Of a stretch of 64,000 nucleotides of DNA, positions 43,775-64,000 are shown piece by piece. Location of the stretch: contig NZ_JAOTIK010000002.1 of assembly GCF_030116705.1 (NCBI RefSeq), positions 124,001 to 188,000 on the forward strand, in the 5' to 3' direction. The notes beneath the pieces are model-generated. The model was not told the origin of the DNA. It did no database searches and saw only the letters and a list, made by a program, of their open reading frames with translations. Position 1 is the stretch's first letter. Each line of letters starts with the position of its first letter. The stretch comes from Streptomyces sp. ML-6. GTDB taxonomy: Bacteria; Actinomycetota; Actinomycetes; Streptomycetales; Streptomycetaceae. The position numbers were made by a program, and so were the translations under genes.

Positions 43775-44002
43775 GTGAAGTCACAGTACTGAGGCGGAAG
43801 GAACCGGTTCTCTCAGCTGAGGACCGTTGTCAGGACACCCATTGCCACCCGGGGAGTGCGGGTCGCACGTTGGAGGGCAGCCGGAATACGCCGGAAACGT
43901 GCCGTAGGCCCGGTGGAGTGGTCAGTAGCCCGTCACTACTGCGCGGGGCAGCCAGGTGTCGGCTGCCCCGCGCGGCTACTCCTGTAGTGGGACTGGCGTC
44001 CG

Positions 44003-44150: not shown

Positions 44151-44340
44151 GCGGTCCCCGCCGACGTGGCCTCGGGCCCGCGCGGAGGCGAGCCCGTCAT
44201 TCGTATTGGCCACGATGAGCTCCCGCTGGAGCTCGGCCATCACACTGAGCATGCCGAACATGGCGCGGCCCTCCATGGTGGAGGTGTCGATGCCCTGCTC
44301 GATGACGTGCAAGCCGATGCCGCGCTCGCGCAGGCCCGCC
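44130..44340 (-). pseudogene. Serine recombinase (resolvase) fragment
   Basis: The minus strand reads GIDTSTMEGRAMFGMLSVMA, then ELQRELIVANTNDGLASARA. This is the E-helix region of the serine recombinase catalytic domain (TxxGRxxFxxxxxxAExERxxI), followed directly by loss of frame. The N-terminal catalytic Ser and the DNA-binding hinge are missing. At its upstream end it meets the truncated tyrosine integrase. Confidence 0.7.
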
Positions 44341-45210
44341 GCAGGGCATGCGGGCTGAACCGGTCGGCGGCCGGGCGTCCTTCGAGTTCCATCAGATAGC
44401 GCAGGCGGTTGCGGATTGTCCCGCGGTGCAGGCTGCCGCCGGACTCGTCCGCGAACAGCACCGGTGAGTCGGGGAACTTGCCCCGCACATCGTCGAGGAA
44501 CCAGGGCAGGAGGAGGTCGAGGCTGTCCAGCATGGGTACCCAGCGCGGCCTGGGGCCGGAAGTGCGGGCGCCTTTGCCAAAACGGACGTGGAGTTTCCCG
44601 AACGGGCCCCGCGAGAAGTGGACGTCGGGACGCTCCAACAGGGAGATTTCTTCCGAGCGCAGGCCGACGTGATACAGGGTCCGGAACATTGCGTAGTCCC
44701 TGGCCGCGGGCCCGTACTTGCGGGCAGTGGCGATCCGGGCCTTGAGGAAGTCGAAGAACTCCGCCGCCCGTTCCGGGGTCGGCGGCGGCAGCTGAGCCGG
44801 GGAATCGTCCCCGACATGCCGCGAGGCATTGAACTCGTCCGCCGGGCAGACCGGGCGGACACCGACCCCCGCTTCAATCTCAACGGCCTTGCGGACCTGC
44901 AGGAACCGATGAAAGCCCTTGAAGGTCTGCACATACTCGTGCCGGCTCGATGCCGTCCGCCCGCCGAGGGCCAGGTCGCCCACGACGCGGTCGATGTCCT
45001 CCGGGGTGAGGTCCCACGCGGGCCGCCCCAGCGCAGTCAGCGTCCGTTCCAGTAGCCCAATGTCGTTTTCGACCGTCACCGGGCTGAACCCGCGGGCCCC
45101 CACGAGGCGACGAACGCCTCGACCCACTCGGCCTGGAATTCCCACGGGTCGGCGGTCACCGGCTCCAGCAGGACGGCACCGTCCTTGATCACCCGCAACT
45201 GGGATGTCAC
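44330..45210 (-). pseudogene. Tyrosine recombinase/integrase, frameshifted and truncated
   Basis: From the GTG at 45210 the minus strand reads VTSQLRVIKDGAVLLEPVTA and AEWVEAFVASW. A frame change at a G run near 45100 leads to GFSPVTVENDIGLLERTLTA, then YAMFRTLYHVGLRSEEISLL (catalytic Arg box) and RFSPHALRRAC (HxLR box). The final HxxY region is gone, replaced by resolvase sequence near 44335. Core-binding and most of the catalytic domain are recognisable, but the active-site Tyr is lost, so the element cannot move by itself. Confidence 0.8.
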
Positions 45211-45356
45211 CGGCACGGACTCCTATCGCCTCGCCACCGTCCGCGCCCGCGCAGAACAACAGGCCGGCACGAGCTGATCAGGACCCATGAGGGTTCGTGA
45301 GCATCGTCAGCGTTCACGGATCCTTGACCACCACCAGCCGCCCTCCCTCCAATCGC

Positions 45357-46899: not shown

Positions 46900-48690
46900 A
46901 TGTTCGGTAACGAGACCCCCTGGGAACTCGCCGAAATAATCCATCAATTGAGGCGCAGCGCCGGCTTCACCCAGCGTGAAATGGCCGAGCGTGCCAAGAT
47001 CAGCGTGGCCGGGCTGCGTGACCTCGAACAACGGCGGGTGACGCGGCCTCGGGTCAGCACGCTGCGCCGCATCGCGGCTGCGCTGGAGCTGTCTCCGGCC
47101 GAGACCCATGAGCTCGTGCGCGTCGGGTCACTGGGGCCGATGCTGGCCCATGACCTGCGTCTTCGGGTGCTCGGCCCCCAGTCGATCTCGGTCGACGGCG
47201 AGCCGGTCAATCTCGGCTCGGAGCGGCAGCGAACGATGCTCGCGCTGCTCGCGATCTCGCCCGGCGTCCCCGTCAGCCTGGATGCCCTGATCGACGTGGG
47301 CTGGGGGGAGGGAGCCGTCCCCAAAGTGGACCTGGTCCGCTCGCAGATGTCGCGGCTGCGTCGGCGGATCCAGCCCAGGGGGCAGAAGGAGCCGGTCCTG
47401 GTCTCGCTGAACGGTGGATACGCGCTCCAGGTGAACGACGGTCAGCTCGACCTGCTGGTCTTCCGCCGGCTGGTGGCCTCCGCCCGGCGCGACTGCGAGG
47501 CGGGCAGGACCGAGGCCGCGGTGATCTCCTACCGGCAGGCCATGGGCCTGTTGAGGGACAAGCCGCTCGTCGACCTGCCCGCGGTGCAGGAACTCCCCGT
47601 GATGGCGGGGCTCCGGCGCGAGCTGGAGACGGCGCTCCTGGAGTACGCCGACTCCGCGGCGGGCATCGGCCGGCATGAGGAGGTGCTCACTCCGCTGTAC
47701 CGCTTCGCGGAATCCAATCCTCTGCACGAGTCCGTGCACGCCCGGCTGATGACCGCTCTTGCGGGCTCCGGCCAGCCGGCCGTCGCGCTGGAGCTGTTCG
47801 AGTCGCTGCGGGGCCAGCTCGCCGAGGAACTCGGTGTCGATCCAGGGGAGTTGGTGCGCGAGACGCATCAGGCCATCCTGCGTGGTGTGCCCGCACGGGC
47901 GCAGTTGGTGTCGGTGCCGCCGTTGCAGGCGGGTACGGTCCCCTCCCAGCCGGTCCCGGCTCAGCTTCCGGCCGACGTCAACGGTTTCTCCGGCCGGCGC
48001 GAGGAGCTCGCCCACCTCGATGCGCTGGGGGAACAGGGTGAGGCCCAGTCGGCCGTGATGATCGTGACGCTGCCGGGCAGGCCGGGGGTGGGGAAGTCCA
48101 GTCTGGCGGTGCACTGGGCGCACCGGGTCGCCGAGAGGTTTCCCGATGGGCAGCTCTACGCCGAACTGGGCGACTCCTGCTCGGCCGACGTGGTGCGTGA
48201 CTTCCTGCTTGCGCTGGGGGTCGGAGCCGGACAAGTGCCGGACAGCCTGGCCGGCCGGTCGGCGTTGTTGCGCAGTCTGCTGACAGGCAAGCGGGTCCTC
48301 ATGGTGTTGGACAACGCTGTCAGCACCGATCAGGTACGTCCGTTGCTGCCCGGTTCCCGGGGCTGTGTGGCGTTGGTGACCAGCCGTGACCCGCTTACGG
48401 GGCTGGTCGCCTCGGAAGGGGCCCGGCCGTTGATCGTGGACGCGTTGCCGGAGGCCGACTCGCTGACCCTGCTTCAGCGCAGGCTCGGCGCGGCCCGTGC
48501 CATGGCCGAGCCGAAGGCCGTGCGCGAGATCCTGGCGCTGTGTGAAGGGCTGCCCGCGGCGTTGGTCGCGATGGCGACCCGGGCGCTCACCGATCCCCGG
48601 CTGTCGTTGACCGCTCTGGCCAAGGAGTTGCGCGAGGGGTACCTGCCGACCACCTGGGAGGTCGACAGCCCCTTGCGGCACATTTCGTGA
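46900..48690 (+). CDS. SARP-family pathway activator with N-terminal HTH and NB-ARC ATPase domains
   Basis: The 596-residue regulator has an XRE-type helix-turn-helix (LRRSAGFTQREMAERAKISV, residues 10-75). A SARP winged helix follows (LRVLGPQSISVDGEPVNLGS, about 90-185), then the bacterial transcriptional activation domain (YRQAMGLLRDKPLVDLPAVQ onward, to about 330) and an NB-ARC core with P-loop LPGRPGVGKSSLA near 390 and LMVLDNAV. It lacks the C-terminal TPR part of large AfsR proteins. ATG 46900 follows AGGGGG; GTG 46885 is an alternative. It is the likely switch of the NRPS cluster that follows. Confidence 0.9.
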   Translation: MFGNETPWELAEIIHQLRRSAGFTQREMAERAKISVAGLRDLEQRRVTRPRVSTLRRIAAALELSPAETHELVRVGSLGPMLAHDLRLRVLGPQSISVDGEPVNLGSERQRTMLALLAISPGVPVSLDALIDVGWGEGAVPKVDLVRSQMSRLRRRIQPRGQKEPVLVSLNGGYALQVNDGQLDLLVFRRLVASARRDCEAGRTEAAVISYRQAMGLLRDKPLVDLPAVQELPVMAGLRRELETALLEYADSAAGIGRHEEVLTPLYRFAESNPLHESVHARLMTALAGSGQPAVALELFESLRGQLAEELGVDPGELVRETHQAILRGVPARAQLVSVPPLQAGTVPSQPVPAQLPADVNGFSGRREELAHLDALGEQGEAQSAVMIVTLPGRPGVGKSSLAVHWAHRVAERFPDGQLYAELGDSCSADVVRDFLLALGVGAGQVPDSLAGRSALLRSLLTGKRVLMVLDNAVSTDQVRPLLPGSRGCVALVTSRDPLTGLVASEGARPLIVDALPEADSLTLLQRRLGAARAMAEPKAVREILALCEGLPAALVAMATRALTDPRLSLTALAKELREGYLPTTWEVDSPLRHIS

Positions 48691-48732: not shown

Positions 48733-49716
48733 TCACGTGCGGGAAGTGCGGGGGACAGCGTAGGAGAACCTGTCCCCCGTCCACGCCGACCGGGAAGCGA
48801 CGGCATCGATGCGTGCGAGGGTCTCGGGTGTCAGGGTGACATCCGCCGCGGCGGCGTTTTCGGCGAGCCTGACCGCGCTGCGCGTGCCGGGGATGGCCGC
48901 CACGTCCTCGCCCCGTGCCAGCAGCCAGGCGAGCGCCAACTGCCCGGGGGTGATGCCGAGTTCCTCGCTCAGCTTGGTCAGCTCGGCGAGGTTCGCGTTG
49001 TTCGTCGCCAGTGCGTCGCCCTGGAAGCGCTGGTCGGGAAGGCGGTCGTCGTCGGTGCCCAGTTCCTCCAGCCTGAGCCTGCCGGTGAGGTACCCCCGGC
49101 CGAGCGGGCTGAAGCCGACGATGCCGATGCCGAGCCTCCGTGCGAGGGGCACCACGTCGTCCTCCAGCTCCCGCCAGAACAGCGACCACTCGTACTGGAT
49201 GGCGCTGATCGGGGCCGTGGCGGCGGCTCGTTCCAGTTCGTCCGGGCTGCTCTCGGAGAGGCCGAGGTAGCGCACCTTGCCCTCGGCCACCAGCTCGGCC
49301 ATGACTCCGACGCTTTCCTCCACCGGTACCGTCGGGTCGACCCGGTGCAGGTAGTACAGGTCGATGTGGTCGGTGCCGAGGCGGGCGAGCGAGTCCTCGC
49401 AGAAGCGGCGTATCCGGTCCGGGCGGGCGTCGAGGCTGGGCGGGTCTCCTTGCTTCTCCCGCCAGATGCCGAACTTCGTGGCGAGCACGACCTGCTCGCG
49501 CCTGCCGGCGATGCCGCGGCCGACGAGTTCCTCGTTGTGCCCGGCGCCGTAGCTCATCGAGGTGTCGATGAGCGTCACGCCGAGGTCGATCGCCCGTTGG
49601 ATGGTGCGTACGGACTCGTTGTCGTCGGCGGGCCCGTAGTCCTGCGACATGCCCATGCAGCCCAGGCCGATGGCGGAGGTGGTGAGGCCGTGACTGCCGA
49701 GTGCCCGGGTGATCAC
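48733..49716 (-). CDS. Aldo/keto reductase
   Basis: This 327-residue AKR of the AKR13/yakc type has GLGCMGMSQDYGPADD, LIDTSMSYGAGHNEELVGRG (catalytic Asp and Tyr), ATKFGIW (catalytic Lys) and LYYLHRVDPTVPVEE (catalytic His). It would reduce a carbonyl with NADPH, or oxidise an alcohol. The GTG overlaps the 2OG-oxygenase stop by 4 bases, so the two act in one branch. A joint role could be oxidising a hydroxylated side chain or reducing a product aldehyde from the NRPS reductase domain. Confidence 0.88.
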   Translation of the reverse strand: MITRALGSHGLTTSAIGLGCMGMSQDYGPADDNESVRTIQRAIDLGVTLIDTSMSYGAGHNEELVGRGIAGRREQVVLATKFGIWREKQGDPPSLDARPDRIRRFCEDSLARLGTDHIDLYYLHRVDPTVPVEESVGVMAELVAEGKVRYLGLSESSPDELERAAATAPISAIQYEWSLFWRELEDDVVPLARRLGIGIVGFSPLGRGYLTGRLRLEELGTDDDRLPDQRFQGDALATNNANLAELTKLSEELGITPGQLALAWLLARGEDVAAIPGTRSAVRLAENAAAADVTLTPETLARIDAVASRSAWTGDRFSYAVPRTSRT

Positions 49717-50456
49717 GACAGCCTCCCGGGCAGCGCACTGTAGTTGAGGACCAGGACGTCGCGGTGTCCCACCCGGGCCCGGTCGACCGCCTCGATCGGG
49801 GTGACCTGGTGGTAGGTGCGCTGGTCGTCCCCGAGCAGCAGGTCGCCGGGCTCGGACAGGGTGACGGTGCGCAGCAGGTTCTGCTTCTCGTCGTACGTGG
49901 TGCTCTCGCCGCCGGTGATGTTCAGCCGGTCGATGAGCAGCGAGCCGACGAAGGTGACACCGTCGCGGTGGCGGCCCTCGGGGGCCGGGTGGCCCGTCTT
50001 GTCGTCGGCGACGATGCGGACCGGGTGGAGTTTGATCAGCCACCGGCGGGTGTCGTCGACCGCGGTGAAGATCCGGCCGAGCGAGGTCAGCAGGCTGCGC
50101 AGCAGCGGGTCCTGGATGAAGGTGTCGGTGAGCGGCTCGTACACCCGGTCGACACCTCCGTTGAGGTGGTTGAAGAACTTCTCCTGGCGGTACGGCTCGT
50201 GCGGCAGGAGCGTGAGTTCTTCCGTGCCCGGGCTGTACTCGTACTGGCCATAGCGGCGGTACCGGTAGGAGCCCCCGTCCGCCATGAACGTGTCGGGCTC
50301 GAGGTCGTCCCAGTTCTTGGCGAACCGCTGCCAGTCCTGGGGGGTGGCACCGATGATCTCCGACAGTTCCCGGGATGACACCAGGTGTTCGCCGGTACCG
50401 GACAGCGCGTCCGCGACAGTGCGTGCGGGGCTGCTCAGAGTGGTGTTGCCTGACAT
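49713..50456 (-). CDS. 2OG-Fe dioxygenase (PF10014-type amino-acid hydroxylase family)
   Basis: The 247-residue protein carries EGRHRDGVTFVGSLLIDRLN (the HxD iron ligands), NITGGESTTYDE, GDLLLGDDQRTYHQVTPI (third His ligand) and a closing HRDVLVLNYS. This is the pattern of the 2OG-Fe dioxygenase family that includes bacterial isoleucine dioxygenase; characterised relatives hydroxylate Ile, Leu or Met as free amino acids. It probably prepares a hydroxylated aliphatic amino acid for the cluster. GGAAAGGA precedes the ATG. It is divergent from the KamA gene. Confidence 0.82.
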   Translation of the reverse strand: MSGNTTLSSPARTVADALSGTGEHLVSSRELSEIIGATPQDWQRFAKNWDDLEPDTFMADGGSYRYRRYGQYEYSPGTEELTLLPHEPYRQEKFFNHLNGGVDRVYEPLTDTFIQDPLLRSLLTSLGRIFTAVDDTRRWLIKLHPVRIVADDKTGHPAPEGRHRDGVTFVGSLLIDRLNITGGESTTYDEKQNLLRTVTLSEPGDLLLGDDQRTYHQVTPIEAVDRARVGHRDVLVLNYSALPGRLS

Positions 50457-50943
50457 GGCGGTCCTTTCCAGGTCGAACCGGTGCTTTGCCGGGGGCGCTC
50501 GAACGAGTTCCCCGGCCATCGATACTGGTGCGGCGTCCCGACGGCCGGCGTACACCTCTTGCGGGGGGCGCGGCACCGAGCATGCTGGTCAGCCGTGCCG
50601 TGACGGCGCTGCGGCGGAGGCGCTACGGGGCCGGGGCGCGGGGCCGGTCGTGGGGCGGTCCGCTGCCGCGGGTTCCGTAGGAAAACCGCAGTGGGCCCTG
50701 CTTCGCCGCGTGATCCGGTGCGTCACCAGGGCCGCTCGTGGGGCGGGCCCGGCGGTGGCGCGCCCGTGCGCGACCCGTTGCCCCTTCACGATGGAGTCCC
50801 TGATCCGACCGCAGCGGGGAGAAGCACGACCGGCCGGGGCCGCGAAGGCGCACGCCGCGGACGGCGGACCGGGTGCGCGGGGCCGTGCGGCGGTCATCGC
50901 CCCGACCCGTGGGTGGGCCCTGATCGCGAGGAGGCAGCACGTC
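50457..50943. other. Divergent promoter region between the 2OG oxygenase and KamA genes
   Basis: About 490 bases with no recognised gene. It must hold the promoters of both arms of the cluster. No 11-bp-spaced TGAC repeats like those upstream of the SARP gene were found by eye. Confidence 0.45.
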
Positions 50944-52059
50944 ATGGCCGGAGCGACAAACGGAGTGTTCCACGAGAAGACCTCGCCGTTCCTGCGCGAG
51001 AAGCTGGCGGGGACATCGGCCGATTTCCTGCGCCGGCAGTACCTCGTGGACCCGGCCGAGCCGTTGGGCAAGCCCCTGGAGGTCGACCGGCACTACCACT
51101 CCGAGGTCGAGGCGCTCTTCGAGGGCAGGGTGTTGCGCGGGGTGGAGAAGCTGTACCGGCGCACCGTGCTGGTCGAGCCGACGAGTGTGTGTGCGGCGCA
51201 CTGCCGCTGGTGCATCCGGGGTCAGTACGACACCTTCACCCTGGGCGAGGACGAGCTCGAGCTGATCGCCCGGTACTGCGGGACGGCTCCCGAGAACGCG
51301 GAGGTGCGGGAGGTTCTCGTGACCGGCGGTGATCCGCTGATGCTGGTGAAGCGGCTCGATTTTCTGCTGGACGCGCTGGAGCGGCACGCGCCCAATGTGG
51401 AGGTGGTGCGCATCGGTACGCGGGTGCCGCTCCAGGACCCGCGCCGTGTCGATGCGCGGATGGTGCGTGCCCTGCGGCCCCGGTCGGGTTTCCGGATCGA
51501 GATCGCCACCCATGTGAACCACCCGGGTGAGCTCTTTCCCGAGGTGCGGGAGGCCTATCGGCGGTTGTCGGAGGCCGGGGTGACGCTCTACGACCAGACC
51601 GTGCTGCTGCGGGGGGTCAACGACGATCTGGGAACCCTGGTCGACCTGGTCGAGGAGCTGCGCGGGCTGCGCATCGAGATGCACTACCTGTTCCACTGCG
51701 TACCGATCCGGGGCATGGATCACCATCGCACGACCCTGGACGAGGGGCTGCGGCTGGCCCGGCGGCTCACTTCGTCCGGCCTGACGTCGGGCCGGGCGAA
51801 GCCGATGTTCACCGTGATGACGGACATCGGCAAGATCACTCTCTACGAGGGCACCATCCTGGAGCGGGACGACCGCGGCCGGGTGCTGCTGGCGTCCGGC
51901 TACTCCTACGAGGACCGCCTGAGGTGGACTCCGGGCTGGCAGTTGCCGGACAACGCGCACGTCGGCGACGACGGTCTGCTGCGGGTCTGGTACCTGGACA
52001 GCAGTGCGGCCGCCGCGCCGCTCCCGGCCGTCGTGGCGGCCGAGGAGGGGAACAGGTGA
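50944..52059 (+). CDS. KamA-family radical SAM enzyme (lysine/arginine 2,3-aminomutase type)
   Basis: This 371-residue radical SAM protein has the cluster-binding CxxxCxxC at Cys83, Cys87 and Cys90 (CAAHCRWC). VTGGDPLMLVKRLD, IRIGTRVPLQDPRR-like strands and LFHCVPIRGMDHHRTTLDEG follow, all in KamA order. The PGGGGK segment that supplies the PLP lysine in classical aminomutases is shortened to DIGKI, though a Lys is aligned. It may make a beta-amino acid (beta-lysine or beta-arginine) for the adjoining NRPS. Its stop overlaps the NRPS GTG by 4 bases. Confidence 0.85.
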   Translation: MAGATNGVFHEKTSPFLREKLAGTSADFLRRQYLVDPAEPLGKPLEVDRHYHSEVEALFEGRVLRGVEKLYRRTVLVEPTSVCAAHCRWCIRGQYDTFTLGEDELELIARYCGTAPENAEVREVLVTGGDPLMLVKRLDFLLDALERHAPNVEVVRIGTRVPLQDPRRVDARMVRALRPRSGFRIEIATHVNHPGELFPEVREAYRRLSEAGVTLYDQTVLLRGVNDDLGTLVDLVEELRGLRIEMHYLFHCVPIRGMDHHRTTLDEGLRLARRLTSSGLTSGRAKPMFTVMTDIGKITLYEGTILERDDRGRVLLASGYSYEDRLRWTPGWQLPDNAHVGDDGLLRVWYLDSSAAAAPLPAVVAAEEGNR

Positions 52060-55000
52060 GCGCCCGGGGCCGGCTCGTGCCGAGCCGCGCCGACTCCGGC
52101 GGGCGGGTGCCGCTGTCGCCCGCCCAGGACGGCATCTGGATCGCCGATCAGCTCCACCCGGGCGAGCCCACCTACACGACGCCGATGGCGGTGCGGTTGC
52201 GCGGGCCGCTGAGCCGGGCCGCGCTGACCGGGGCCGTGGCCGACATCGTGGCGCGGCACGAGGTGTTGCGTACCGTGGTCCGCACCGTCGAGGGCAGGCC
52301 GTGGAGTTGCGTCCGGGCGTCCGAACCGTCGGCCGTGGCCACGACGGATCTCACCGGGCTGGCGCCGGCGGACCGGTACCCGGCCGCGGTGGCGGACGCC
52401 GTGGAGCGGGCCGGGCAGTACATCGACCCGGCCGGACCGATGGGCCGCTTCCACCTGTACCGGCTCGCCGACGACGATCACTTGCTGTTCCTGGCGGTGC
52501 ATCACCTGGTGTGGGACGGCTGGTCGATCAGCGTCTTCTTCCGGGACCTCTCGGAGTTCTACCGCTCGAGGGTCGCCGGAGGCGGTCCCGACCTGCCCGT
52601 GCTGCCGGTCCAGTACGCGGACTACGCCGTGTGGCAGCGCGACCGGTTCGCCGCCGCCGGCACCGCTGCCGCCGATCTCGGCCACTGGCGCGCGGAGCTG
52701 TCGGACGATCTGGCGCCGTTCGAGCTGCCTCGGGTGCTGCCGGCCGGCGGCGACGGCGCCAACGCGGGAGCGGTGACTCAACTGCTCGTCCCCACGGCCG
52801 AGTTGAGCAGGATCAAGGCGTTCGCCCGCGCCGAGCGGGTGTCGGTGTTCATGGTGCTCAAGACGGCACTGCACGCGGTGCTGCACCGGCTCACCGGTGT
52901 GCCGAAGGTGTCGACCGTGTTCCCGTCGGCCAACCGGGACGCGGCCGAGCTGGAGGACCTCATCGGGCTGTTCGTCAATCAGCTCGTGCTGCGTACCGAC
53001 TGCGCGGGCGATCCGTCCTTCCGTGACCTGCTGCATCAGGTCCGGGGGAAGGTGCTGCGCGCGTTCCGTCATGCCGAGTTGCCGTTCGAGTGGCTGGTGC
53101 GCGAGCTCGGTATCGACCGTGACTCCAGCCGCAATCCTCTGGACCAGGTGCGGCTGGGCTTCCAGAACGCCACCGACGCTTCGCTGCTCGACCTGCCGGG
53201 CGTGCACGGCGAGGTCGTCGAGCTGCACAGTGGGGCCGTCAAGGAGAAGCTCGACCTGGTGGCGTGGGAGCAGCCGGCCGGGCTGGAGCTGGTCGCGGCC
53301 TACAACACCGGCGTGTTCGACGAGCTCGCGGCGAACCGGCTGCTGCGCAGGCTGGCCCGGGTGATGTCCGCGGCCTGCGCCGATCCGGGGCGGCCGCTCT
53401 CCGAGCTGCCGCTGCTGGTGGAGGGCGAGCGGGCGGAGCTGGTGCGGGCGGGCGGGAGCGCGCCGGGCGGGGAGCCGGCGGCCACGGTGCACGAGCTGCT
53501 CGACGCGCAGATCGCCCGCGTGCCCGGGGCGAGGGCGTTGGTGTGCGGCGCCGAGTCGGTGTCCTACCGGGAACTGGGGGCGAGGGCGGATCTGCTGGCC
53601 GGGGTGCTGCGTGGGCGGGGGGTGCGCCGCGGCGACGCGGTCGGGGTGTACCTCGGGCGCTCGGTCGACTTCGCGGTCGTCGCGCTGGCCGTGTTCCGGG
53701 CCGGTGGGTACTACGTGCCGCTGGACCCCGATGTGCCGCCCGCCCGTACCGCGTTCCTGCTGGCCGACGCCGCACCCGCGGTGGTGGTCACCTCCGCCGG
53801 GCTCGCGCCGGCGCTGCCGGTGACGGACTGCCCCGTGGTGCGGCTCGCGCCCGGTTGGCACGAGCGGGCGCAGGACCGTGCCGAGGCGCCCGCCGGTGAC
53901 GGGTCGGAGGCGGACTACGCCTACGTCATGTACACCTCCGGTTCCACCGGTCGACCCAAGGCGGCGACCCTCGCGCACAGGAGCGTCGTGGAGGTGATCC
54001 GCCATCAGCAGAGCGTCCTGCCGCTCGGTGTCGGCGACCGGGTGCTGCAGCGGGCGCCGCTGACGTTCGACGTTTCCGTCATGGAGCTGTTCTGGCCGCT
54101 GTGCTGCGGCGCCACTGTGGTCGTCGTACCGCCGGACGCGGCTGCGGACGTGCGGGCGCTGGCCCGGCTCGCCCGGGAGCAGCGGGTGACCGCGATGTTC
54201 CTGGTGCCCTCGCTGGTCCGCGCGTTCCTGGCCGCCGGCCCGTCGGTGCTGCCGCACCTGCGGGCGCTGTTCTGCACCGGTGAGGCGCTCACCCCGGAAC
54301 TGATCGGGCGGGTACGGGAGTCAGCGCCGGAGGCCGCCGTGGTGAACATCTACGGGGCGACCGAAGCATCGATCTACGCCACCACCTGGTCTCTTCCCCC
54401 GGGGGCCGAGGTGCCGGCCGAAATACCGGTCGGGGTGCCCAGGCCCGGAGTACGCTGCCATGTCCTCGACACCGCCGGACGGCCGCTGCCGGCGGGCAGC
54501 CGGGGCGAGCTGTACCAGGGCGGGGGCGCGGTCACCCCGGAGTGCGGTTACCTCGGCCGGCCGGCGCTGACCGCGGAGCGGTTCGTGCCCGACCCGTTCG
54601 GTTCCGTCCCCGGGGCCCGCCTGTACCGCACGGGGGATCTCGTACGGATGTGCCGGGACGGGAGTCTCTACTACGCGGGCCGGGCGGACTGGCAGTTCAA
54701 GCGGGACGGCGTGCGCATCGAGCCCGGGGAGATCCAGGCGGTGCTGGAGGGCCGTCCGGACGTGGCGCACGCCCATGTCACCCCGTACTCCGAGGGGGAG
54801 GTCGGTCACCTCGTCGCGTACCTCGTGCCGGCGCCCGGGGCGGGGGTGGACGTGGAGGCGGTCCGCAGGGCCGCGGCCACGGCGCTCCCCCGGCAGCTGG
54901 TGCCGTCGCGCTACGTGTGCCTGGACGCCCTGCCCCTGACGGCGAACGGCAAGGTCGACGCGCGGGCGCTGCCGCCGCCGGTGGCTCCGGCGCCGACCGC

Positions 55001-56468
55001 GAAGCGGCGCACGGTGCCCCGCGACGGCGCGGAGCGGACGGTGGCCGGGTGCGTCGCCGGGCTGCTCGGCCTGGAGGAGGTGTGGGCCGACGACGACTTC
55101 TTCCACCTGGGCGGGACGTCGTTGCAGGCCGCCGAGCTGGCGTACCGGCTGGGCAAGGAGTTCGGTACCGGGCCGGACGTGCGGGCGGTGTTCGAGGCGC
55201 GGTCCGTGGCCGAGCTGGCCGCGCGCATGGCCGGCGGGGGCGAACGCGGCCTGGCGGGGGGCGCGTTGCCGCTCGCCGCCGATGCCCGGCTCGATCCGGC
55301 GATCACCGCGGAGGGTGTGCGGCCGGTCGACGCGGAGCGGGTCGCCGACCCCCGGCACGTGCTGCTCACCGGGGCCACCGGGTTCGTGGGCGCGTTCCTG
55401 CTGCGCGAGCTGCTGGACCGTACGCGCGCGCAGGTGTACTGCCTGGTCCGGGCCGCGGACGACGGCGAGGCCGCGCGGCGCGTCGAGGAGGTGCTGCGGT
55501 CGTACGGGCTGTGGGACGACACGGTGCCCGCGCGGACGACGGCCCTCGCGGGTGACCTGGGTCTTGCGCTGCTCGGCCTCGGTGAGGAGCGGTTCGCCGA
55601 TCTGGCGGGGACGTTGGACACCATTCACCACAACGGTGCGAGGGTGAACCACCTGGAGTCCTACGGCCGGCTGCGGGCGTCGAACGTGTCCGGCACGGTG
55701 GAGGTTCTGCGGCTGGCCACCACCGGGCGGCTGAAGCCGGTGCACTTCGTGTCCACGACCGGCCTGGCGTACGGCACGGGCGACAATCCGCCGGTGCTGG
55801 CCGAGGACCGGCGGGTGCCGCCGGCCGAAGTGCTGCCCAACGGCTACGTGGCGAGCAAGTGGGTGGCCGAGGAGCTGGTCCGTGTCGCGGGCGGGCGCGG
55901 CGTACCGGTCGTGACGTACCGTCCGGGCCGGGTGAGCGGTCATTCCGTCACCGGTGCGGCGGGCACCGCCGACGCGTTCTGGAACCTGGTGCGTGCGATG
56001 TGCCTCATCGGCGCGGCCCCCGATGTCGGGCTCACCGCCGACCTGGTGCCGGTCGACCACGTGGCGGGCGCGATCGTGCACCTTTCGCGACGGCCGGGGT
56101 CGTTCGGCACCACGTTCCATGTGACGAACCCGCGGCCGGTGCCGGTGCGTCTGGTCGTCGACCGGCTGCGGGTTGCGGGCCGTCCGCTGGTGCGGCTTCC
56201 GGTCGCGCGGTGGCGGGAGCGGTTGTCCTCGGCGGCCGCCGAGGACCCGTCGCTGAGCCTGGTCGCCGCGCAGAGCGGGTCCAGCGGCGGGTTCGGCCCC
56301 GTGGTGTTCGCCCGGGACAACACCGAGCGCGCGCTGGCGGGGGCGCCCGTGCCGGCCGCCGAGGTCGACGAACCATTGCTGGACCGGTACCTGGAGTACT
56401 TCGTCCGGAACGGTTTTCTCCCCGCTCCGCCGACGTATGAAGGCGAATCGGCCGGAAAACGAAGGTGA
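52056..56468 (+). CDS. Nonribosomal peptide synthetase, C-A-T-R
   Basis: This 1470-residue module has a condensation domain (HHLVWDGWS, His150/Asp154), then adenylation motifs YVMYTSGSTGRPKAA, NIYGATEASIYAT, YRTGDL and NGKVD. The carrier follows with DDFFHLGGTSLQA (Ser1022), then a thioester reductase (VLLTGATGFVGAFLLREL from about 1098, catalytic NGYVASK). The R domain would release the chain as an aldehyde or alcohol. Hand alignment gives a code of about DVMFFTIIYK, which matches no common amino acid I recall. With only one C domain, the upstream donor must be the separate A-T protein or another carrier. Confidence 0.92.
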   Translation: MSARGRLVPSRADSGGRVPLSPAQDGIWIADQLHPGEPTYTTPMAVRLRGPLSRAALTGAVADIVARHEVLRTVVRTVEGRPWSCVRASEPSAVATTDLTGLAPADRYPAAVADAVERAGQYIDPAGPMGRFHLYRLADDDHLLFLAVHHLVWDGWSISVFFRDLSEFYRSRVAGGGPDLPVLPVQYADYAVWQRDRFAAAGTAAADLGHWRAELSDDLAPFELPRVLPAGGDGANAGAVTQLLVPTAELSRIKAFARAERVSVFMVLKTALHAVLHRLTGVPKVSTVFPSANRDAAELEDLIGLFVNQLVLRTDCAGDPSFRDLLHQVRGKVLRAFRHAELPFEWLVRELGIDRDSSRNPLDQVRLGFQNATDASLLDLPGVHGEVVELHSGAVKEKLDLVAWEQPAGLELVAAYNTGVFDELAANRLLRRLARVMSAACADPGRPLSELPLLVEGERAELVRAGGSAPGGEPAATVHELLDAQIARVPGARALVCGAESVSYRELGARADLLAGVLRGRGVRRGDAVGVYLGRSVDFAVVALAVFRAGGYYVPLDPDVPPARTAFLLADAAPAVVVTSAGLAPALPVTDCPVVRLAPGWHERAQDRAEAPAGDGSEADYAYVMYTSGSTGRPKAATLAHRSVVEVIRHQQSVLPLGVGDRVLQRAPLTFDVSVMELFWPLCCGATVVVVPPDAAADVRALARLAREQRVTAMFLVPSLVRAFLAAGPSVLPHLRALFCTGEALTPELIGRVRESAPEAAVVNIYGATEASIYATTWSLPPGAEVPAEIPVGVPRPGVRCHVLDTAGRPLPAGSRGELYQGGGAVTPECGYLGRPALTAERFVPDPFGSVPGARLYRTGDLVRMCRDGSLYYAGRADWQFKRDGVRIEPGEIQAVLEGRPDVAHAHVTPYSEGEVGHLVAYLVPAPGAGVDVEAVRRAAATALPRQLVPSRYVCLDALPLTANGKVDARALPPPVAPAPTAKRRTVPRDGAERTVAGCVAGLLGLEEVWADDDFFHLGGTSLQAAELAYRLGKEFGTGPDVRAVFEARSVAELAARMAGGGERGLAGGALPLAADARLDPAITAEGVRPVDAERVADPRHVLLTGATGFVGAFLLRELLDRTRAQVYCLVRAADDGEAARRVEEVLRSYGLWDDTVPARTTALAGDLGLALLGLGEERFADLAGTLDTIHHNGARVNHLESYGRLRASNVSGTVEVLRLATTGRLKPVHFVSTTGLAYGTGDNPPVLAEDRRVPPAEVLPNGYVASKWVAEELVRVAGGRGVPVVTYRPGRVSGHSVTGAAGTADAFWNLVRAMCLIGAAPDVGLTADLVPVDHVAGAIVHLSRRPGSFGTTFHVTNPRPVPVRLVVDRLRVAGRPLVRLPVARWRERLSSAAAEDPSLSLVAAQSGSSGGFGPVVFARDNTERALAGAPVPAAEVDEPLLDRYLEYFVRNGFLPAPPTYEGESAGKRR

Positions 56469-56482
56469 ATCGGCCGGAAAAG
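56439..56482 (+). repeat. 22-bp tandem repeat across the NRPS stop codon
   Basis: Two adjacent 22-base units (56439-56460, 56461-56482) share gaaggYgaatcggccggaaa and differ at two bases. The NRPS TGA falls inside the second copy. It probably arose by slippage. Confidence 0.8.
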
Positions 56483-56705
56483 GAGGCCGGAGTCGGGGGT
56501 GCGACGTTCGGCCAGATTGTTTCCGGCCATGGGATTTCACTTCGCGCGGGTACAACTGTGCTGATGGAAAGCGGGTGGTTGGACGAGAGGCCGTCCTGCG
56601 ACTAGCGTGCTTTCCCACGCTGCCGGGCCCAGGTTCACACCCCTTTTGGCTGCGCAGTCGCTCGTCAATTCCTGTCCGTACACACATTCGGCGATAAGGT
56701 AGAAA

Positions 56706-59201
<2,496 letters not shown>

Positions 59202-59210
59202 CCGGGCGGG

Positions 59211-59280
59211 CCCGGCTCGTACCCGGGGTCCTGGTCGTGCGCGTACCCGCGGTCGCGAAGGACCACGGGTACGGGCCGGC
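59211..59280. terminator. Long imperfect hairpin between LeuRS and the A-T NRPS gene
   Basis: Arms 59211-59232 and 59259-59280 pair at about 20 of 22 positions (one G-U included) around a 26-base loop. They lie between convergent genes, so termination in both directions is plausible. Confidence 0.65.
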
Positions 59281-59321
59281 TCCCCGCCGGGGCACCCACG
59301 CGGCGGGGCCGGGCGCCGGTC

Positions 59322-61151
59322 TCAGGCTTCGCCCAGTTCGGCGAGGAGCTTCTCGACCTCCTCGTCGGACATCGCCGCCACCCGGCGGTGGCGGTCCGTG
59401 ACGTCGGCGAGGTGTCCGGGGGCCGGTTCCCGCGCGCGCACCTCCCGGGCCAGGGCGGCGATCGTGGGGGCGCCGAACGTGCTCCGAAGCGGCAGGTCCA
59501 CGCCGAACAGGTCGTTCAGGCAGACGGTCAGCCGGCCCGCCAGCAGGGAGTGGCCGCCCAGGGCGTAGAAGTCGTCGTGGACGTGCGCCGGGCGCTCGGG
59601 CAGCTCCAGTACGGCGTACCAGGTCTCGGCGATCAGCTCCTCCAGCGCGTCCCTCGGAGGGACGACGACGTCCGGCGTCGGCGGCAGCGGGTCGGGGAGG
59701 GCGCCGTGGTCGATCTTGCCGTTGACGGTCAGGGGTATCTCGTCGAGCAGGAGGACGCGCGTGGGCACCATGTGCGCGGGCAGCCGGGCCGCGGCGTGCT
59801 CGCGGACGGCCTCCGCGAGGGCGGGGCCTTCGCCGGGGCGCGGCACCACGTACCCGAACAGGCTGCCGAAACGGGCGACGACGGCGGCCCGCGTCACCCC
59901 GGGGTGCCCGGACAGCACCGCCGTGACCTCGGCGGGCTCGACGCGGAAGCCGCGGACCTGCACCTGGTCGTCGGACCTGCCGTGGAAGGACAGGGCGCCG
60001 TCCGGCCGCCGGGCGGCCAGGTCGCCGGTGCGGTAGACGCGGCTGCCGGGCGGCCCCGACGGGTCGGGCAGGAAGCGCTCGGCGGTCAGGCCGGGGCGGT
60101 TCAAATAGCCCCGGGCGACCCCGGCCCCGCCGACGTACAGCTCGCCGCGTGCCCCGTCGGCGACCGGCCGCGCGTCCTCGTCGAGCAGCTGTACCCGCAC
60201 CTCGGCGATCGGACGGCCGATGGGGGGTACGCCGGGGGCGCCCGCCGGTACCGTGGCCGCCGTGGTGACGACGGTGGCTTCGGTCGGTCCGTAGTGGTTG
60301 ACCAGCTCGTACGGTGTGCCGGGGGGCGGGGCGGCGGTGAGCGTGTCCCCTCCGGTGAGGATCGTGCGCAGCCGCGAGGGCGCGGGGGGCAGCCGCAGCA
60401 CTTCCTGCGCCACCGGGGTGGGCAGGAAGGTCACGGTGATCCCCTCGGCCGCCAGCCATGCGAGCAGCCGCTCGGGCCGTGACCGGTCCTCCTCGTCCGG
60501 CAGGTGCAGCAGGGCGCCCGAGGCGAGTGCGGGCCACACCTCCCACACCGCGGCGTCGAAGCCGAGTGCCGCGACGTGCGCGGTGTGCTCGCCGGGCCCG
60601 AGCCCGTAGCGGTGCACGTGCCACGCGACCAGGTTGGCCAGGGCGCGGTGCGGCACCATGACGCCCTTGGGGGTTCCGGTCGAGCCCGACGTGTGGATGA
60701 CGTAGGCCAGGTTGTCCGGCAGCACCGGCACGTGGGGCGCGGTGGCCGGCCGGGCCGCGACAGCCGCCGCGTCGCGGATGAGGTCCAGGTGCGTCGCTCC
60801 GGGCGGGGCCGGCACCTCCCCGGGCCCCCGTGTGATCAGGACGGCGGGTGCGGCGTCCGCCAGTACGTGCGCGATGCGGGCGGGCGGCTGGGCCGGGTCC
60901 ACCGGGAGGTAGGCCCCCGCCGCCTTGAGCACGGCGAGCTGTACCACGACCGACTCGGTGGACCGTTGCAGGTGGACGGCGACCCGCGACTCCGGCCGGA
61001 CGCCGAGGGCGACCAGGTGGTGGGCGAGCCGGTTGGCCCGCTCGTCCAGTTCCCGGTAGCTCAGCACTCCCCGGGCGCTCGTGACCGCGGGGGCGTCGGG
61101 CCGGGCGGCGGCCCGCGCCGCGACCTGCTGGTGCACGGGGAGGAGGGTCAC
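59322..61151 (-). CDS. NRPS adenylation-carrier (A-T) didomain, leucine-type code
   Basis: The 609-residue protein has adenylation motifs YVIHTSGSTGTPKGV, FDAAVWEVWPA, NHYGPTEATVV, YRTGDL and NGKID, then carrier HVHDDFYALGGHSLLAG (Ser near residue 535). A helical tail ends MSDEEVEKLLAELGEA. Hand-read pocket residues are DAWFLGHVVK, one change from the Leu code DAWFLGNVVK, so it probably loads leucine or a leucine derivative. The GTG overlaps the desaturase stop by 4 bases, suggesting that the carrier-bound Leu is modified by that enzyme before transfer to the C-A-T-R module. Confidence 0.9.
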   Translation of the reverse strand: MTLLPVHQQVAARAAARPDAPAVTSARGVLSYRELDERANRLAHHLVALGVRPESRVAVHLQRSTESVVVQLAVLKAAGAYLPVDPAQPPARIAHVLADAAPAVLITRGPGEVPAPPGATHLDLIRDAAAVAARPATAPHVPVLPDNLAYVIHTSGSTGTPKGVMVPHRALANLVAWHVHRYGLGPGEHTAHVAALGFDAAVWEVWPALASGALLHLPDEEDRSRPERLLAWLAAEGITVTFLPTPVAQEVLRLPPAPSRLRTILTGGDTLTAAPPPGTPYELVNHYGPTEATVVTTAATVPAGAPGVPPIGRPIAEVRVQLLDEDARPVADGARGELYVGGAGVARGYLNRPGLTAERFLPDPSGPPGSRVYRTGDLAARRPDGALSFHGRSDDQVQVRGFRVEPAEVTAVLSGHPGVTRAAVVARFGSLFGYVVPRPGEGPALAEAVREHAAARLPAHMVPTRVLLLDEIPLTVNGKIDHGALPDPLPPTPDVVVPPRDALEELIAETWYAVLELPERPAHVHDDFYALGGHSLLAGRLTVCLNDLFGVDLPLRSTFGAPTIAALAREVRAREPAPGHLADVTDRHRRVAAMSDEEVEKLLAELGEA

Positions 61152-62101
61152 GGGGTCCCACCCGCCTCGCGGCGGTGCAGCAGCGGGCGGTCGCGGTGCA
61201 GGAAGCCCAGTACGGCGGGCACGGGGCTGATGATCCGGGCCCCGGGGGCCACCCCGTCCAGGCGCCGGGCGCGTACCTCCGGCAGCTGCGACCAGTGGCT
61301 GGCGGGACTGAGGTGGTGTTCCTGGTGGTAGCCGTCGTTGAACGCGATGCGGTTGTAGAAGGTGCCGTAGTAGCTGACCGAGTCGGTGGTCCGGTCCAGC
61401 GGGTCGGCGCCGTAGTGCCGGAAGTAGTTCTGGACGTTGACGAGGACCAGCGCGACGAAGCAGGCCGGCAGGTAGACCAGCAGCGTCCACTGCCAGGAGA
61501 CCCACAGGAGTCCGGCGAGCGCCAGGCAGTGCGCGGCGCGGTCGGCCTGTATCTGGCGCAGTTCGCGGGTGCGTCTCGGTTCCCGGTTGTGGGCGAGCGA
61601 GAGCAGCTTGTGCTCGTCCGGGCCGACCCGCCACAGCCGGTGCGCCCGCAGGACGTCCCGGACCCGGTCCGCGAAGGTCTCCAGCGCGCCGAGGAGGATG
61701 TAGCGGCCCAGCGGGGCGTGTTCGCCGTCCCGGCCGTCGCGGTAGGTCGAGGACGTGTCACGGGTGGTGCCGTCCTCGCCGACGGGGTCGTTGTTGAAGC
61801 GGTGGTGGTTGCGCACGTGGGTCAGGTGGTACGCCTGCACGGACTGCCCGATGTTGGCGGAGTTCAGCAGGGAGCCCACCGCGTTCAGCCCGGCGGAGGC
61901 GAACCACGGGACATGGGTGAACAGGTGGGAGACCACGATGATGTTGTAGGCGGTCATCACCGCGACGAGCAGCCCGCCGCCCACCCCGGCCCGGACCGGG
62001 GACGAGTGCCACTGTGCCGCCACCCAGACCGTCAGCACCGGCTGCGCCAGGCTGTAGCCGAGCAGCAACGCGTCCTTGGGCGTGTGCTTCCAGATCCGCA
62101 C
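61148..62101 (-). CDS. Fatty acid desaturase-type membrane di-iron oxidase
   Basis: This 317-residue membrane enzyme has several hydrophobic segments and His boxes HLFTH (near 60), HLTHVRNHH (near 92) and HQEHH with ASHW (near 265). These ligate the di-iron site of the FADS/hydroxylase superfamily. Members in NRPS clusters often desaturate or hydroxylate an amino acid held on a carrier protein. Its coupling to the A-T protein makes leucine on the carrier a likely substrate. A fatty-acyl substrate is the alternative. Confidence 0.87.
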   Translation of the reverse strand: MRIWKHTPKDALLLGYSLAQPVLTVWVAAQWHSSPVRAGVGGGLLVAVMTAYNIIVVSHLFTHVPWFASAGLNAVGSLLNSANIGQSVQAYHLTHVRNHHRFNNDPVGEDGTTRDTSSTYRDGRDGEHAPLGRYILLGALETFADRVRDVLRAHRLWRVGPDEHKLLSLAHNREPRRTRELRQIQADRAAHCLALAGLLWVSWQWTLLVYLPACFVALVLVNVQNYFRHYGADPLDRTTDSVSYYGTFYNRIAFNDGYHQEHHLSPASHWSQLPEVRARRLDGVAPGARIISPVPAVLGFLHRDRPLLHRREAGGTP

Positions 62102-62110
62102 GGTGACTCC

Positions 62111-63199
62111 TCAGAGGTAACTGCACAGCGTTCCGCGGCGGCGCACGTCGAGCGTCGCGCAGTGGAACGAGCCGCCGAAGCTGTTGAAGTTGCGGAAGTT
62201 GCACAGGATCGGGGTGAAGCCGAAGTTCTTGAGCACCTGGATCATCGGCTCGTCCTGGCGCTCGACGATCACCCGGTCCTCGTCCAGCATCAGGATGTTC
62301 ATGTTGATCCACTTGCTGGTCATGTACAGCGGGTGGGTGTCGGGCAGGACCGGCCGGGGGGCGGGCCTGACGTCCCAGCCCCTGAAGAGGTCCGGCACCT
62401 TCGGCACGCGCTCGGGGTTGACGAGGAGTTTCCCGGGGGCCATCGGCACCAGGGTCGCGTCGATGTGCATGGGGTGGGTGTCGTTGAACTCGAGTACGTG
62501 GATGCGGTATTCGTCGCCGAGGTGGCGCCGCAGCCACTCGATGCCGAAGTCGTTGGTCACGTTGCTCTTCTGCGCGATGATGTCGCGTCCGCACCGGGTG
62601 AAGTCCGCGGCGTCGAAGGTCGGTTCGAACTCGGTGACGACCAGGTGGGGGGAGCCGTCCGGGCGGGGGCGCTCGGTCCATTCCTGGTCGAACTGCTCGT
62701 CCGTCAGCTCGGGCTTCGGGCCGGCGCTCCACCTGGCGCCGCCCCGGAAGTACTCCTTGAGCAGGGGGCGGTAGGCGAGCGATTCGTAGTAGCGCGAGCG
62801 CCAGGCCATCGGGCACTCGATGATGTCGTCGCCGACCACCAGGAGCGCGTCGCGCGGCATCGCGGCGTACATGCCGCTGCTGGTCCAGTGCAGGGTGCTG
62901 TAGGTCGTGCGCTGCGCGAGGGGTTCGGGCCGCCGCACGACCACGCCCTCCGCCCGGAGGATGTGCGCGAACTCCTCCAGCTCCCGGCGCGCGGCCTCGA
63001 CCCGCTCGGCGGGGAAGGGCCGGCCCGCCTGGCTGCGGAACGTCTCGTGCATGTCCTGCGGCAGCACCGGGGGCAGCGCCTCGTGCCACGGCGGGAAGCT
63101 GGCGTCGTCGACGATCCCGACGATGACCTCCTCCAGCGGGTCCCATTCGGTGTACGAACACACGGGCCCGGCCGTAGCGGTGTCGTTGTGCCCAGTCAT
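62111..63199 (-). CDS. Amidinotransferase (glycine amidinotransferase family)
   Basis: This 362-residue five-bladed beta/alpha propeller enzyme moves the amidino group of arginine to an amine. Catalytic residues are visible: RDIIAQKSNVTNDFGIEWLR (Asp region), EFNDTHPMHID (His) and GGSFHCATLDVRRRG with Cys347. Together they match AGAT/StrB1. The cluster therefore probably makes a guanidino group on an amine of the product. Its ATG overlaps the thioesterase stop by 1 base, and it sits 9 bases ahead of the desaturase gene. Confidence 0.9.
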   Translation of the reverse strand: MTGHNDTATAGPVCSYTEWDPLEEVIVGIVDDASFPPWHEALPPVLPQDMHETFRSQAGRPFPAERVEAARRELEEFAHILRAEGVVVRRPEPLAQRTTYSTLHWTSSGMYAAMPRDALLVVGDDIIECPMAWRSRYYESLAYRPLLKEYFRGGARWSAGPKPELTDEQFDQEWTERPRPDGSPHLVVTEFEPTFDAADFTRCGRDIIAQKSNVTNDFGIEWLRRHLGDEYRIHVLEFNDTHPMHIDATLVPMAPGKLLVNPERVPKVPDLFRGWDVRPAPRPVLPDTHPLYMTSKWINMNILMLDEDRVIVERQDEPMIQVLKNFGFTPILCNFRNFNSFGGSFHCATLDVRRRGTLCSYL

Positions 63200-63966
63200 C
63201 ACATCTGCCTTTCGGTAGTACGGGACAGCCCTTCCGCGAGTTCCTGCCGCAGCACCCGGGGCGCGGCGAGGAACGAGTGGTGCGTCCCGGGGAGTTCGAC
63301 GTGCCGGAACTGTCCCGGCGCGGCGTACGGGGCCCAGCCGGCCATCTGCTGCGGCCGGATCTCCACGTCGTACCGCCAGCCGATCGACCGCACCCGGCTG
63401 GGCAGGACGACCGGTTCGTCGAGGCGGTAGAGCTGGTTGGCGGTGAGGTCGGCGCGCATCACCCGCAGGCTCAGCGCCAGGACGTCCGGGTGCGGTTCGC
63501 CTCCCATGACGCGGGTCTGGCGGGCGAGTTCGGCGGTCAGCTGCCGGTCGTTCATCGACAGGTAGCGTCCGTAGGGGCCCAGGTGCGGGGCGACCTGGGA
63601 GGAGACGAACACGCAGGCCGGGGCGGGGAGCCCGCTCCCGGCGATCGTCACCGCGGTGGCGAAGGCGGCCAGTGCGCTCCCGCAGTGGCCGAAGAAGCCG
63701 TAGGGGCGGTCCAGGTGGGGTTCCAGGCTGCCGACGAGTTGTTCGGCCAGTTCCTCGTAGGTGCCGAAGTGCGGTTCGCGCAGGCGGTTCTCCCGGCCGG
63801 GCGGTTGCAGCAGGCACACCTCGATGTCCGAGCCGCCGTCCGTGATCCGGCGCGGCCACCGGTTGAACATGGATGCGCCGAGTCCGGAGTACGGGAAGCA
63901 GAACAGCCGGGCCGTGCAGTCGTCGCGCACGGGCCGCAGGAAGGTCTTGTCGCGCGGGGCCCTCAC
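63199..63966 (-). CDS. Type II thioesterase (alpha/beta hydrolase) with Cys nucleophile
   Basis: This 255-residue NRPS-associated thioesterase has RLFCFPYSGLGASMFNRWPR near residue 20, LLQPPGRENRLREP and a C-terminal LPGTHHSFL with the catalytic His. The nucleophile elbow reads GHCGS (Cys95) where family members usually have GHSMG. Type II enzymes clear misloaded carriers; a Cys nucleophile can favour acyl transfer or lactonisation. It starts with a GTG that overlaps the upstream gene's stop by 4 bases and is part of the minus-strand arm. Confidence 0.88.
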   Translation of the reverse strand: MRAPRDKTFLRPVRDDCTARLFCFPYSGLGASMFNRWPRRITDGGSDIEVCLLQPPGRENRLREPHFGTYEELAEQLVGSLEPHLDRPYGFFGHCGSALAAFATAVTIAGSGLPAPACVFVSSQVAPHLGPYGRYLSMNDRQLTAELARQTRVMGGEPHPDVLALSLRVMRADLTANQLYRLDEPVVLPSRVRSIGWRYDVEIRPQQMAGWAPYAAPGQFRHVELPGTHHSFLAAPRVLRQELAEGLSRTTERQM

Positions 63967-64000
63967 ACGGTCACCGGTCCGTCCTCGGCCACCGCCGCCT
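63963..64000 (-). CDS. C-terminal end of a gene that continues past the window
   Basis: Only the last 12 codons are visible (ending AAVAEDGPVTV then TGA at 63965-63963). The GTGA overlap with the thioesterase start is the usual junction of this cluster, so a further biosynthetic gene probably lies to the right. The family cannot be told. Confidence 0.5.
   Translation of the reverse strand, partial: AAVAEDGPVTV

Follow-up and report, generated by a model that had tools for sequence, protein, structure and literature searches.

A second, divergent leucyl-tRNA synthetase in a non-ribosomal peptide gene cluster of Streptomyces sp. ML-6: a candidate self-resistance enzyme

The last part of a 64,000-nucleotide stretch of the Streptomyces sp. 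ML-6 genome (the window, C2:124001-188000 of a 9.13 Mb genome in 5 contigs; positions are those of the window unless a contig or locus is named) holds genes for a non-ribosomal peptide synthetase (NRPS) pathway and, among them, an intact gene for a leucyl-tRNA synthetase (LeuRS). A separate leuS of the long type is present elsewhere in the genome, and the active-site signature of the cluster enzyme is missing from this housekeeping copy. We consider it probable that the cluster product inhibits LeuRS and that the embedded enzyme provides the producer with a spare target copy of lower sensitivity; a second LeuRS of different lineage, with a remodelled active site and a seeming linkage to the gene set, fits such a self-resistance copy. 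The NRPS cluster is apparently undescribed, a term to be taken as provisional.

A search of the genome with TIGR00396 found two full-length leuS genes above cut-off: the cluster gene on contig C2 (888.5 bits) and a long-type gene at C1:2279033-2281834 (901.5 bits, summed in one open frame of 997 codons). The second leuS refutes the possibility that the cluster gene is the sole housekeeping copy. The two proteins share about 50% identity across residues 157-588. In 150 sampled genomes of the genus, housekeeping LeuRS is of the long type and the cluster type is rare: matches above 700 bits to the cluster enzyme occurred in two genomes, its own and that of G045, whose extra LeuRS is of another kind (46% identity), and a later sample of the class added one further genus member, G1119 (72%). 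Outside the genus, the short type is a widespread form of LeuRS among actinobacteria, and matches at E<=1e-290 were present in 194 of 394 class genomes. Since the housekeeping copies of the genus are long-type and the short type is common elsewhere, the cluster copy is, judged by its type, an alien lineage in its own genome and no recent duplicate.

Alignment to solved LeuRS revealed that HMGH, MSKS, EHA...H and the editing motifs are conserved in the cluster enzyme, and that the leucine-specific domain is missing (gap at 589-594, against T. thermophilus 578-637). The active site is remodelled. The cluster LeuRS reads GGKEHATGH in place of GGVEHAVLH, the motif of the C1 housekeeping copy being GGSEHAVLH; in the leucine/adenylate pocket, Tyr53 replaces T. 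thermophilus Phe41. The cluster copy thus differs from the C1 copy by L->G, V->T, S->K and F->Y, a comparison that a sequence-only reading of this DNA had proposed. The Gly aligns with L550 of NgLeuRS and M536 of E. coli, where Leu or Met stands. A peptide-plane flip at L550/M536 separates leucine activation from transfer; in NgLeuRS L550G, leucyl transfer is 31-fold slower and aminoacylation about 25-fold, activation kcat/KM being only about twofold lower, and the effects of EcM536G are milder (PMC9424281). By alignment, the cluster LeuRS naturally bears a change engineered elsewhere, with known conformational effects, and we infer that Gly at the flip position would lower inhibitor binding. 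In the proposed mechanism the whole signature (Gly at the flip position, the preceding Thr, Lys before EHA and Tyr for Phe) would weaken the binding of the inhibitor and preserve the charging of tRNA-Leu, and translation would carry on during production via the cluster LeuRS.

The active-site motif was readable in 80 of 88 LeuRS loci, with Leu in 76 (GG.EHA[IV]LH) and KATG in 4. Among the best 120 database relatives, 77 have [KR].TG, 3 VATG, 15 Lys with Leu kept and 23 VAIL, while 2 were unread. Position 555 of an alignment of 151 sequences is Gly in the five nearest, including the cluster LeuRS, and Leu in 61/61 housekeeping-type sequences, a count that is not independent because this class was picked by motif. 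A tree was calculated from 90 of the 120 listed proteins together with 61 loci out of 63 selected; the two omitted, L124 and L142, had no readable motif. Of the 29 genus loci L013-L041 it included only L013, L014, L017 and L023, and the C1 copy was added to these. In this tree the 87 tips that are of the KATG type or related to it (K/R or VATG) group together to the exclusion of all others.

The same type of LeuRS appears to accompany other genes of the cluster in relatives. Co-occurrence was judged from equal record sizes, not from sequence read, and whole chromosomes give no information on distance; the protein searches covered the best 120 of 4750, 8000 and 542 matches, and the co-occurrence counts are lower bounds. 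Matches to the KamA-like radical SAM enzyme (87%), the LeuRS (87%) and the membrane di-iron oxidase (81%) are found on JGI record(s) of one size, 22,297 bp. KamA (89%) and LeuRS (92%) share a record size in S. albidoflavus (156,951 bp), KamA and oxidase one in Kibdelosporangium phytohabitans (11.76 Mb), and LeuRS and oxidase are paired by record size in S. sclerotialus, Actinophytocola xinjiangensis, Nocardia terpenica, N. ninae and Salinispora oceanensis. The oxidase was found in 1/296 class genomes and 1/91 family genomes, each time the own genome; given this rarity, its repeated pairing with the cluster LeuRS type is unlikely to be due to chance. Beyond the own genome, no oxidase above 65% was found in 296, 91 and 81 genomes, nor any KamA above 80% among 392 genomes of the genus and 199 of relatives (the sets overlap). 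None of the plasmid relatives is close, the best being 65% for LeuRS (Nonomuraea gerenzanensis), <=32% for the oxidase and 54% for the amidinotransferase.

Agrocin 84 is a nucleotide antibiotic, whereas the cluster considered here is of the NRPS kind; in our best reading, the two would share the principle of a resistant LeuRS, here in an unrelated cluster. AgnB2, the immunity LeuRS of the agrocin 84 producer (pAgK84), exemplifies cluster-borne resistance (PMC5059758), and it is the only described cluster-borne resistant LeuRS among the open-licence literature matches listed. Like AgnB2, the ML-6 enzyme is a second, cluster-borne LeuRS beside a housekeeping one and catalytically able, as judged here from motifs alone. 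Both have Thr in EHAT and both are without the leucine-specific domain (for AgnB2, PMC5059758), a loss of little informative value because short-type LeuRS such as L098 also lack the domain. The two proteins are 40% identical. At the flip position AgnB2 has retained Leu (GGIEHATLH against GGKEHATGH), and its KQSKS and MFPYTSG are replaced in the cluster LeuRS by GKAMSKS and MYPYPSG, the AgnB2-type combination of KQSKS with Thr42 for Pro before HIGH being absent.

Several observations weigh against a resistance function. The determinants tested in AgnB2 (T42, A102, Q573 and Q413; PMC5059758) differ from the changes described above; L550G costs activity, and the accessible part of PMC9424281 makes no link to resistance. 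The base of the KATG-type clade has weak support (0.449), and one Thr-Gly sequence, L123 (IATG), falls outside the group. The KATG signature is present also in Streptomyces G1119, in a different locus, where LeuRS and a 30%-identical cytochrome P450 are the only matches to 18 query proteins from the cluster region, and in three genomes of family f90, where the KATG-type LeuRS may be the housekeeping enzyme. Since the signature also occurs outside such clusters, it is consistent with resistance and not proof of it. Linkage in relatives means equal record sizes, with no sequence read and chromosome-size records silent on distance; the cluster leuS lies inside a biosynthetic cluster by position, its travelling with the cluster is seen by record size only, and the same type also occurs elsewhere. 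None of 29 public-scan loci with KamA matches the LeuRS, the oxidase or the amidinotransferase, and 2 of 81 genomes of family f6 (G1278 and G1258) carry oxidase and amidinotransferase in NRPS/PKS (polyketide synthase) clusters, of which 80 and 47 kb were read without finding a match to LeuRS, KamA or the reductase domain. Resistance, product and target are predictions from sequence.

The gene order itself allows other explanations. Two or three adjacent clusters may have been read as one, with LeuRS, KamA and the Condensation-Adenylation-Thiolation-Reductase (C-A-T-R) NRPS in one, the adenylation-thiolation (A-T) didomain, oxidase, amidinotransferase, thioesterase and P450 in another, and a PKS/NRPS locus on the right. 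The two strand units are indeed convergent across 59.2/59.3 kb, oxidase and amidinotransferase are present together in other clusters, and the genes to the right differ in kind, among them a 5333-aa protein with a ketosynthase at its start and, by eye, a two-acyltransferase-like protein. The oxidase, however, shares the 22.3-kb JGI record size with KamA and LeuRS, and likewise a record size with KamA in Kibdelosporangium phytohabitans; this argument is silent on the PKS, which is regarded as separate or undecided, and we hold the division into several clusters to be somewhat unlikely. It is clearly unlikely, in our judgement, that the LeuRS is a mere neighbour of the biosynthetic genes, either a horizontally acquired spare against foreign LeuRS inhibitors or a neutral passenger. 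The occurrence of the same type in other contexts (G1119 and the f90 genomes), a phage-type integrase at 44240-45259 and the position of leuS, which is the last plus-strand gene, 237 bp past the NRPS stop and facing the convergent operon, would agree with this explanation; a passenger would not be expected to share the 22.3-kb record size with both KamA and oxidase, nor to be paired with one of them on other records.

A LeuRS could also serve biosynthesis, by making the leucyl-tRNA that a tRNA-dependent ligase in the pathway would consume. Natural-product pathways with tRNA-dependent steps are known (PMC12945691), and the aminoacylation motifs and the editing domain are intact. Against this, Fem-like, GNAT, cyclodipeptide-synthase and LanB-like families are unmatched in the genes scanned at 46.9-67.6 kb, and a GNAT gene at 26357-27283 is 20 kb further left, among other kinds of genes; moreover, the housekeeping LeuRS could provide Leu-tRNA, and the remodelling of the active site would be left unexplained. 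Among the proteins scanned, one of 180 aa (67016-67558) is left without assignment, as Pfam gave no match to it. We regard this biosynthetic role as very unlikely. T-box control of the cluster LeuRS was likewise considered and rejected: Rfam gave no T-box leader at E<=5 in 56440-56760 upstream of leuS, and no match at gathering threshold in 40001-64000; folding of a 252-nt stretch gave z = -1.99.

The genes of the cluster region are listed in Table 1. Genes were called from codon-position composition and family scans (Pfam, NCBIfam), the start codon of the KamA-like gene being set from relatives. Every gene that the sequence-only reading had named in 48733-64000 (AKR, 2OG-Fe oxygenase, KamA, C-A-T-R, LeuRS, A-T, oxidase, amidinotransferase and thioesterase) was confirmed as an open frame in its place, including the full-length LeuRS between the two NRPS genes; the other leuS, for which that reading had advised a search, is the C1 gene. 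The Pfam scores of the cluster proteins are well over the cut-offs and do not represent a chance pattern. The minus-strand operon extends beyond the end of the window, with the P450 followed by a Val-like A-T gene, and the AfsR/SARP-like regulator is the probable left edge of the cluster, its membership being inferred.

Table 1. Genes of the cluster region in window numbering; positions above 64000 lie to the right of the window.
Feature	Position	Strand	Evidence
AfsR/SARP-like regulator (HTH, BTAD, NB-ARC)	46900..48690	+	Pfam, gene call
Aldo/keto reductase (AKR)	48733..49716	-	PF00248, 238 bits; NCBIfam generic AKR below cut-offs
2-oxoglutarate (2OG)-Fe(II) oxygenase, PF10014 (2OG-Fe_Oxy_2)	49713..50381	-	217 bits
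KamA-like radical SAM/pyridoxal phosphate (PLP) enzyme	50944..52059	+	Radical_SAM Pfam, CX3CX2C; alignment to relatives and 2A5H
C-A-T-R NRPS	52056..56468	+	Pfam, motifs
Second LeuRS, 831 aa, editing domain present	56706..59201	+	TIGR00396, 898 bits (cut-off 548)
Stand-alone A-T didomain, leucine-like code	59322..61151	-	Pfam, code by eye
Membrane di-iron oxidase, FA_desaturase type	61148..62101	-	Pfam; His motifs HLFTH, HVRNHH, HQEHH
Amidinotransferase, HsvA/SxtG/AGAT family, FHCATLDV motif	62111..63202	-	414 bits to HsvA
Stand-alone thioesterase, TEII type, Cys replacing Ser (GHCGSA)	63199..63966	-	Pfam, motif comparison
Cytochrome P450, mostly outside the window (only last codons, 63963-64000, inside)	63963..65255	-	Gene call, Pfam
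Second A-T didomain, Val-like, outside the window	65252..66970	-	Gene call, Pfam; code by eye

The C-A-T-R protein contains HHLVWDG, the carrier motif DDFFHLGGTS and, in its reductase domain, both TGATGFVG and YVASK, which we take to be thioester-reductase motifs. Its A-domain code, read by eye, is DVMFFTIIY, which matches no code known to us; derivation of the product structure from the A codes was set aside for this reason. The canonical Leu code is DAWFLGNVV. The pocket of the stand-alone A-T didomain reads, by eye, DAWFLGHVV, one position off, so the leucine-type pocket of the sequence-only reading stands as leucine-like; the second A-T protein (DALWIGGTF) is Val-like. The KamA-like enzyme keeps the radical SAM CX3CX2C motif and the equivalents of Arg134 and of the PLP-binding Lys337 (Lys297 of 371 aa) of lysine 2,3-aminomutase 2A5H. 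It differs from 2A5H in a shorter Gly run of the PLP loop and in the replacement of Asp293 by Val and of Asp330 by Met/Leu, two residues that presumably bind the lysine side chain; the score to NCBIfam AblA_like_2 is 162 bits, under the cut-off of 396. Since this Asp pair is missing, a function as beta-lysine supplier was rejected. By its binding residues the enzyme is not a lysine aminomutase; its predicted substrate is likely neutral or hydrophobic, and could be leucine.

As for the tailoring enzymes, PF10014 is a family with Ile/Leu hydroxylases, and the best solved relatives of the cluster oxygenase are 3pl0 (uncharacterised) and 9dqp, with a weaker match to isoleucine-4-hydroxylase 6lnh and 30 bits to HilB (cut-off 350). 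The amidinotransferase had no match in the Pfam and NCBIfam scans; its closest solved enzymes are HsvA, SxtG and AGAT, and the HsvA match covers residues 11-363 with the catalytic FHCATLD aligned. The thioesterase reads GHCGSA, compared to GHSMGA in 3qmw, and the Ser in GHSxG, hallmark of type II thioesterases, is absent. In the proposed pathway the A-T proteins would act with the amidinotransferase and the three oxidative enzymes (2OG oxygenase, P450 and di-iron oxidase) to modify aliphatic residues of the leucine/valine type, and the C-A-T-R protein would join one modified residue to a second amino acid and then release the product reductively. Either a small peptide that leaves by reductive release or a product with a strained ring would be compatible with these gene parts, and the predicted product is at most a small aliphatic peptide-like inhibitor, no choice being made beyond that. 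The sequence-only reading had gone further and proposed a guanidino, leucine-derived small peptide aldehyde or alcohol that inhibits LeuRS. A LeuRS inhibitor with a self-resistance copy fits the second, divergent LeuRS, its remodelled site and its seeming linkage to the gene set; the proposed structure is not supported, since KamA is without the lysine-binding Asp pair, the oxidase and amidinotransferase also occur in an NRPS/PKS stretch free of LeuRS, and the Cys thioesterase and P450 allow other chemistry.

Obafluorin is made by an NRPS cluster that, according to the sequence-only reading, carries a resistant synthetase. It covalently inhibits threonyl-tRNA synthetase (ThrRS) (PMC9880928), and the ObiF thioesterase has Cys with a RifR-like triad (PMC6668435); ObiF and SulM, thioesterases with a Cys nucleophile, close beta-lactone and beta-lactam rings (PMC6668435, PMC11298585). 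An NRPS cluster and a Cys thioesterase are the points of likeness, known in ML-6 from the genes alone. Conversely, the synthetase is ThrRS and not LeuRS, the ML-6 thioesterase is a stand-alone protein with GHCGS in place of the GXCXG motif of ObiF, and the ML-6 NRPS has a reductase as its last domain. That this cluster makes a beta-lactone is a conjecture. In a more detailed form, which we judge very unlikely as a whole, a covalent LeuRS trap derived from beta-hydroxyleucine or beta-hydroxyvaline (e.g. an amino-beta-lactone) would be the leucine counterpart of obafluorin, hydroxylated by the P450 or the di-iron oxidase while bound to the stand-alone A-T proteins and then closed to a ring by the Cys thioesterase; KATG-type LeuRS would then be a shared actinobacterial resistance lineage, in which Gly removes the conformational switch that the inhibitors need.

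Parts of the gene set occur in other arrangements. The f6 clusters of G1278 and G1258 resemble the ML-6 genes in the amidinotransferase (65%), the oxidase (63-65%), stand-alone A-domain proteins, a thioesterase and MbtH; they were rejected as the same pathway because LeuRS, KamA and reductase matches are absent, and their short thioesterases keep Ser. By eye, these NRPS/PKS clusters (L163/L164 and L167/L168) adjoin a mycofactocin-like locus. KamA relatives of 67-69% in other Streptomyces were also rejected as the same cluster, since they belong to a different cassette and none of the 29 KamA loci matches LeuRS, oxidase or amidinotransferase. This cassette combines a KamA-like gene with a PreATP-grasp/PGM1-type ligase and, in several cases, an MFS transporter (L046:10001-13623, similar in L047, L048 and L050, partly in L045; families were scanned in L046 only).

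Other LeuRS genes also have neighbours of interest. The G1119 gene (L155:8390-18281) is surrounded by UDP-galactopyranose-mutase-like, DegT aminotransferase and glutamine-synthetase-like genes and by a gene for a fusion of a dehydrogenase with an F420H2-type reductase, and the locus is a candidate for a separate LeuRS-inhibitor cluster. In the f90 genome G1019 (L172:4407-15486) the KATG-type LeuRS faces a siderophore-type set of IucA/IucC, lysine/ornithine monooxygenase, decarboxylase and aminotransferase genes. The extra LeuRS of G045 (L042:14907-17372) has EPHVGH at the HIGH region and lies shortly after an open reading frame with DEHAGSEP repeats (14148-14426), after an AfsR-like regulator; the locus could encode a repeat-peptide product and a LeuRS that belongs to it.

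Around the ML-6 cluster, a gene of the aminoglycoside-phosphotransferase family and the phage-type integrase are found just to the left (42878-45259), and no tRNA genes were found in the window. From 68 kb on there is a different kind of locus, taken as another cluster and, by eye, perhaps of the trans-AT PKS type: L009/L010 (68055-100000 in window numbering) contain a DAO-type oxidase, a carrier, MbtH, an NRPS, the two-acyltransferase-like protein and the 5333-aa protein mentioned above.

There seem to be few natural inhibitors of LeuRS for which both the cluster and a matching resistant enzyme are known, agrocin 84 being the only one among the matches listed, and synthetic inhibitors of LeuRS are reportedly under clinical investigation. 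If the self-resistance reading is true, the product of the ML-6 cluster would be a new scaffold that acts on LeuRS, and the LeuRS signature would be a sequence tag for finding further clusters of this kind. The cluster-type LeuRS are natural enzymes with Gly at the L550G/M536G position; since such enzymes are available, it becomes testable whether this switch controls inhibitor binding as well as catalysis.

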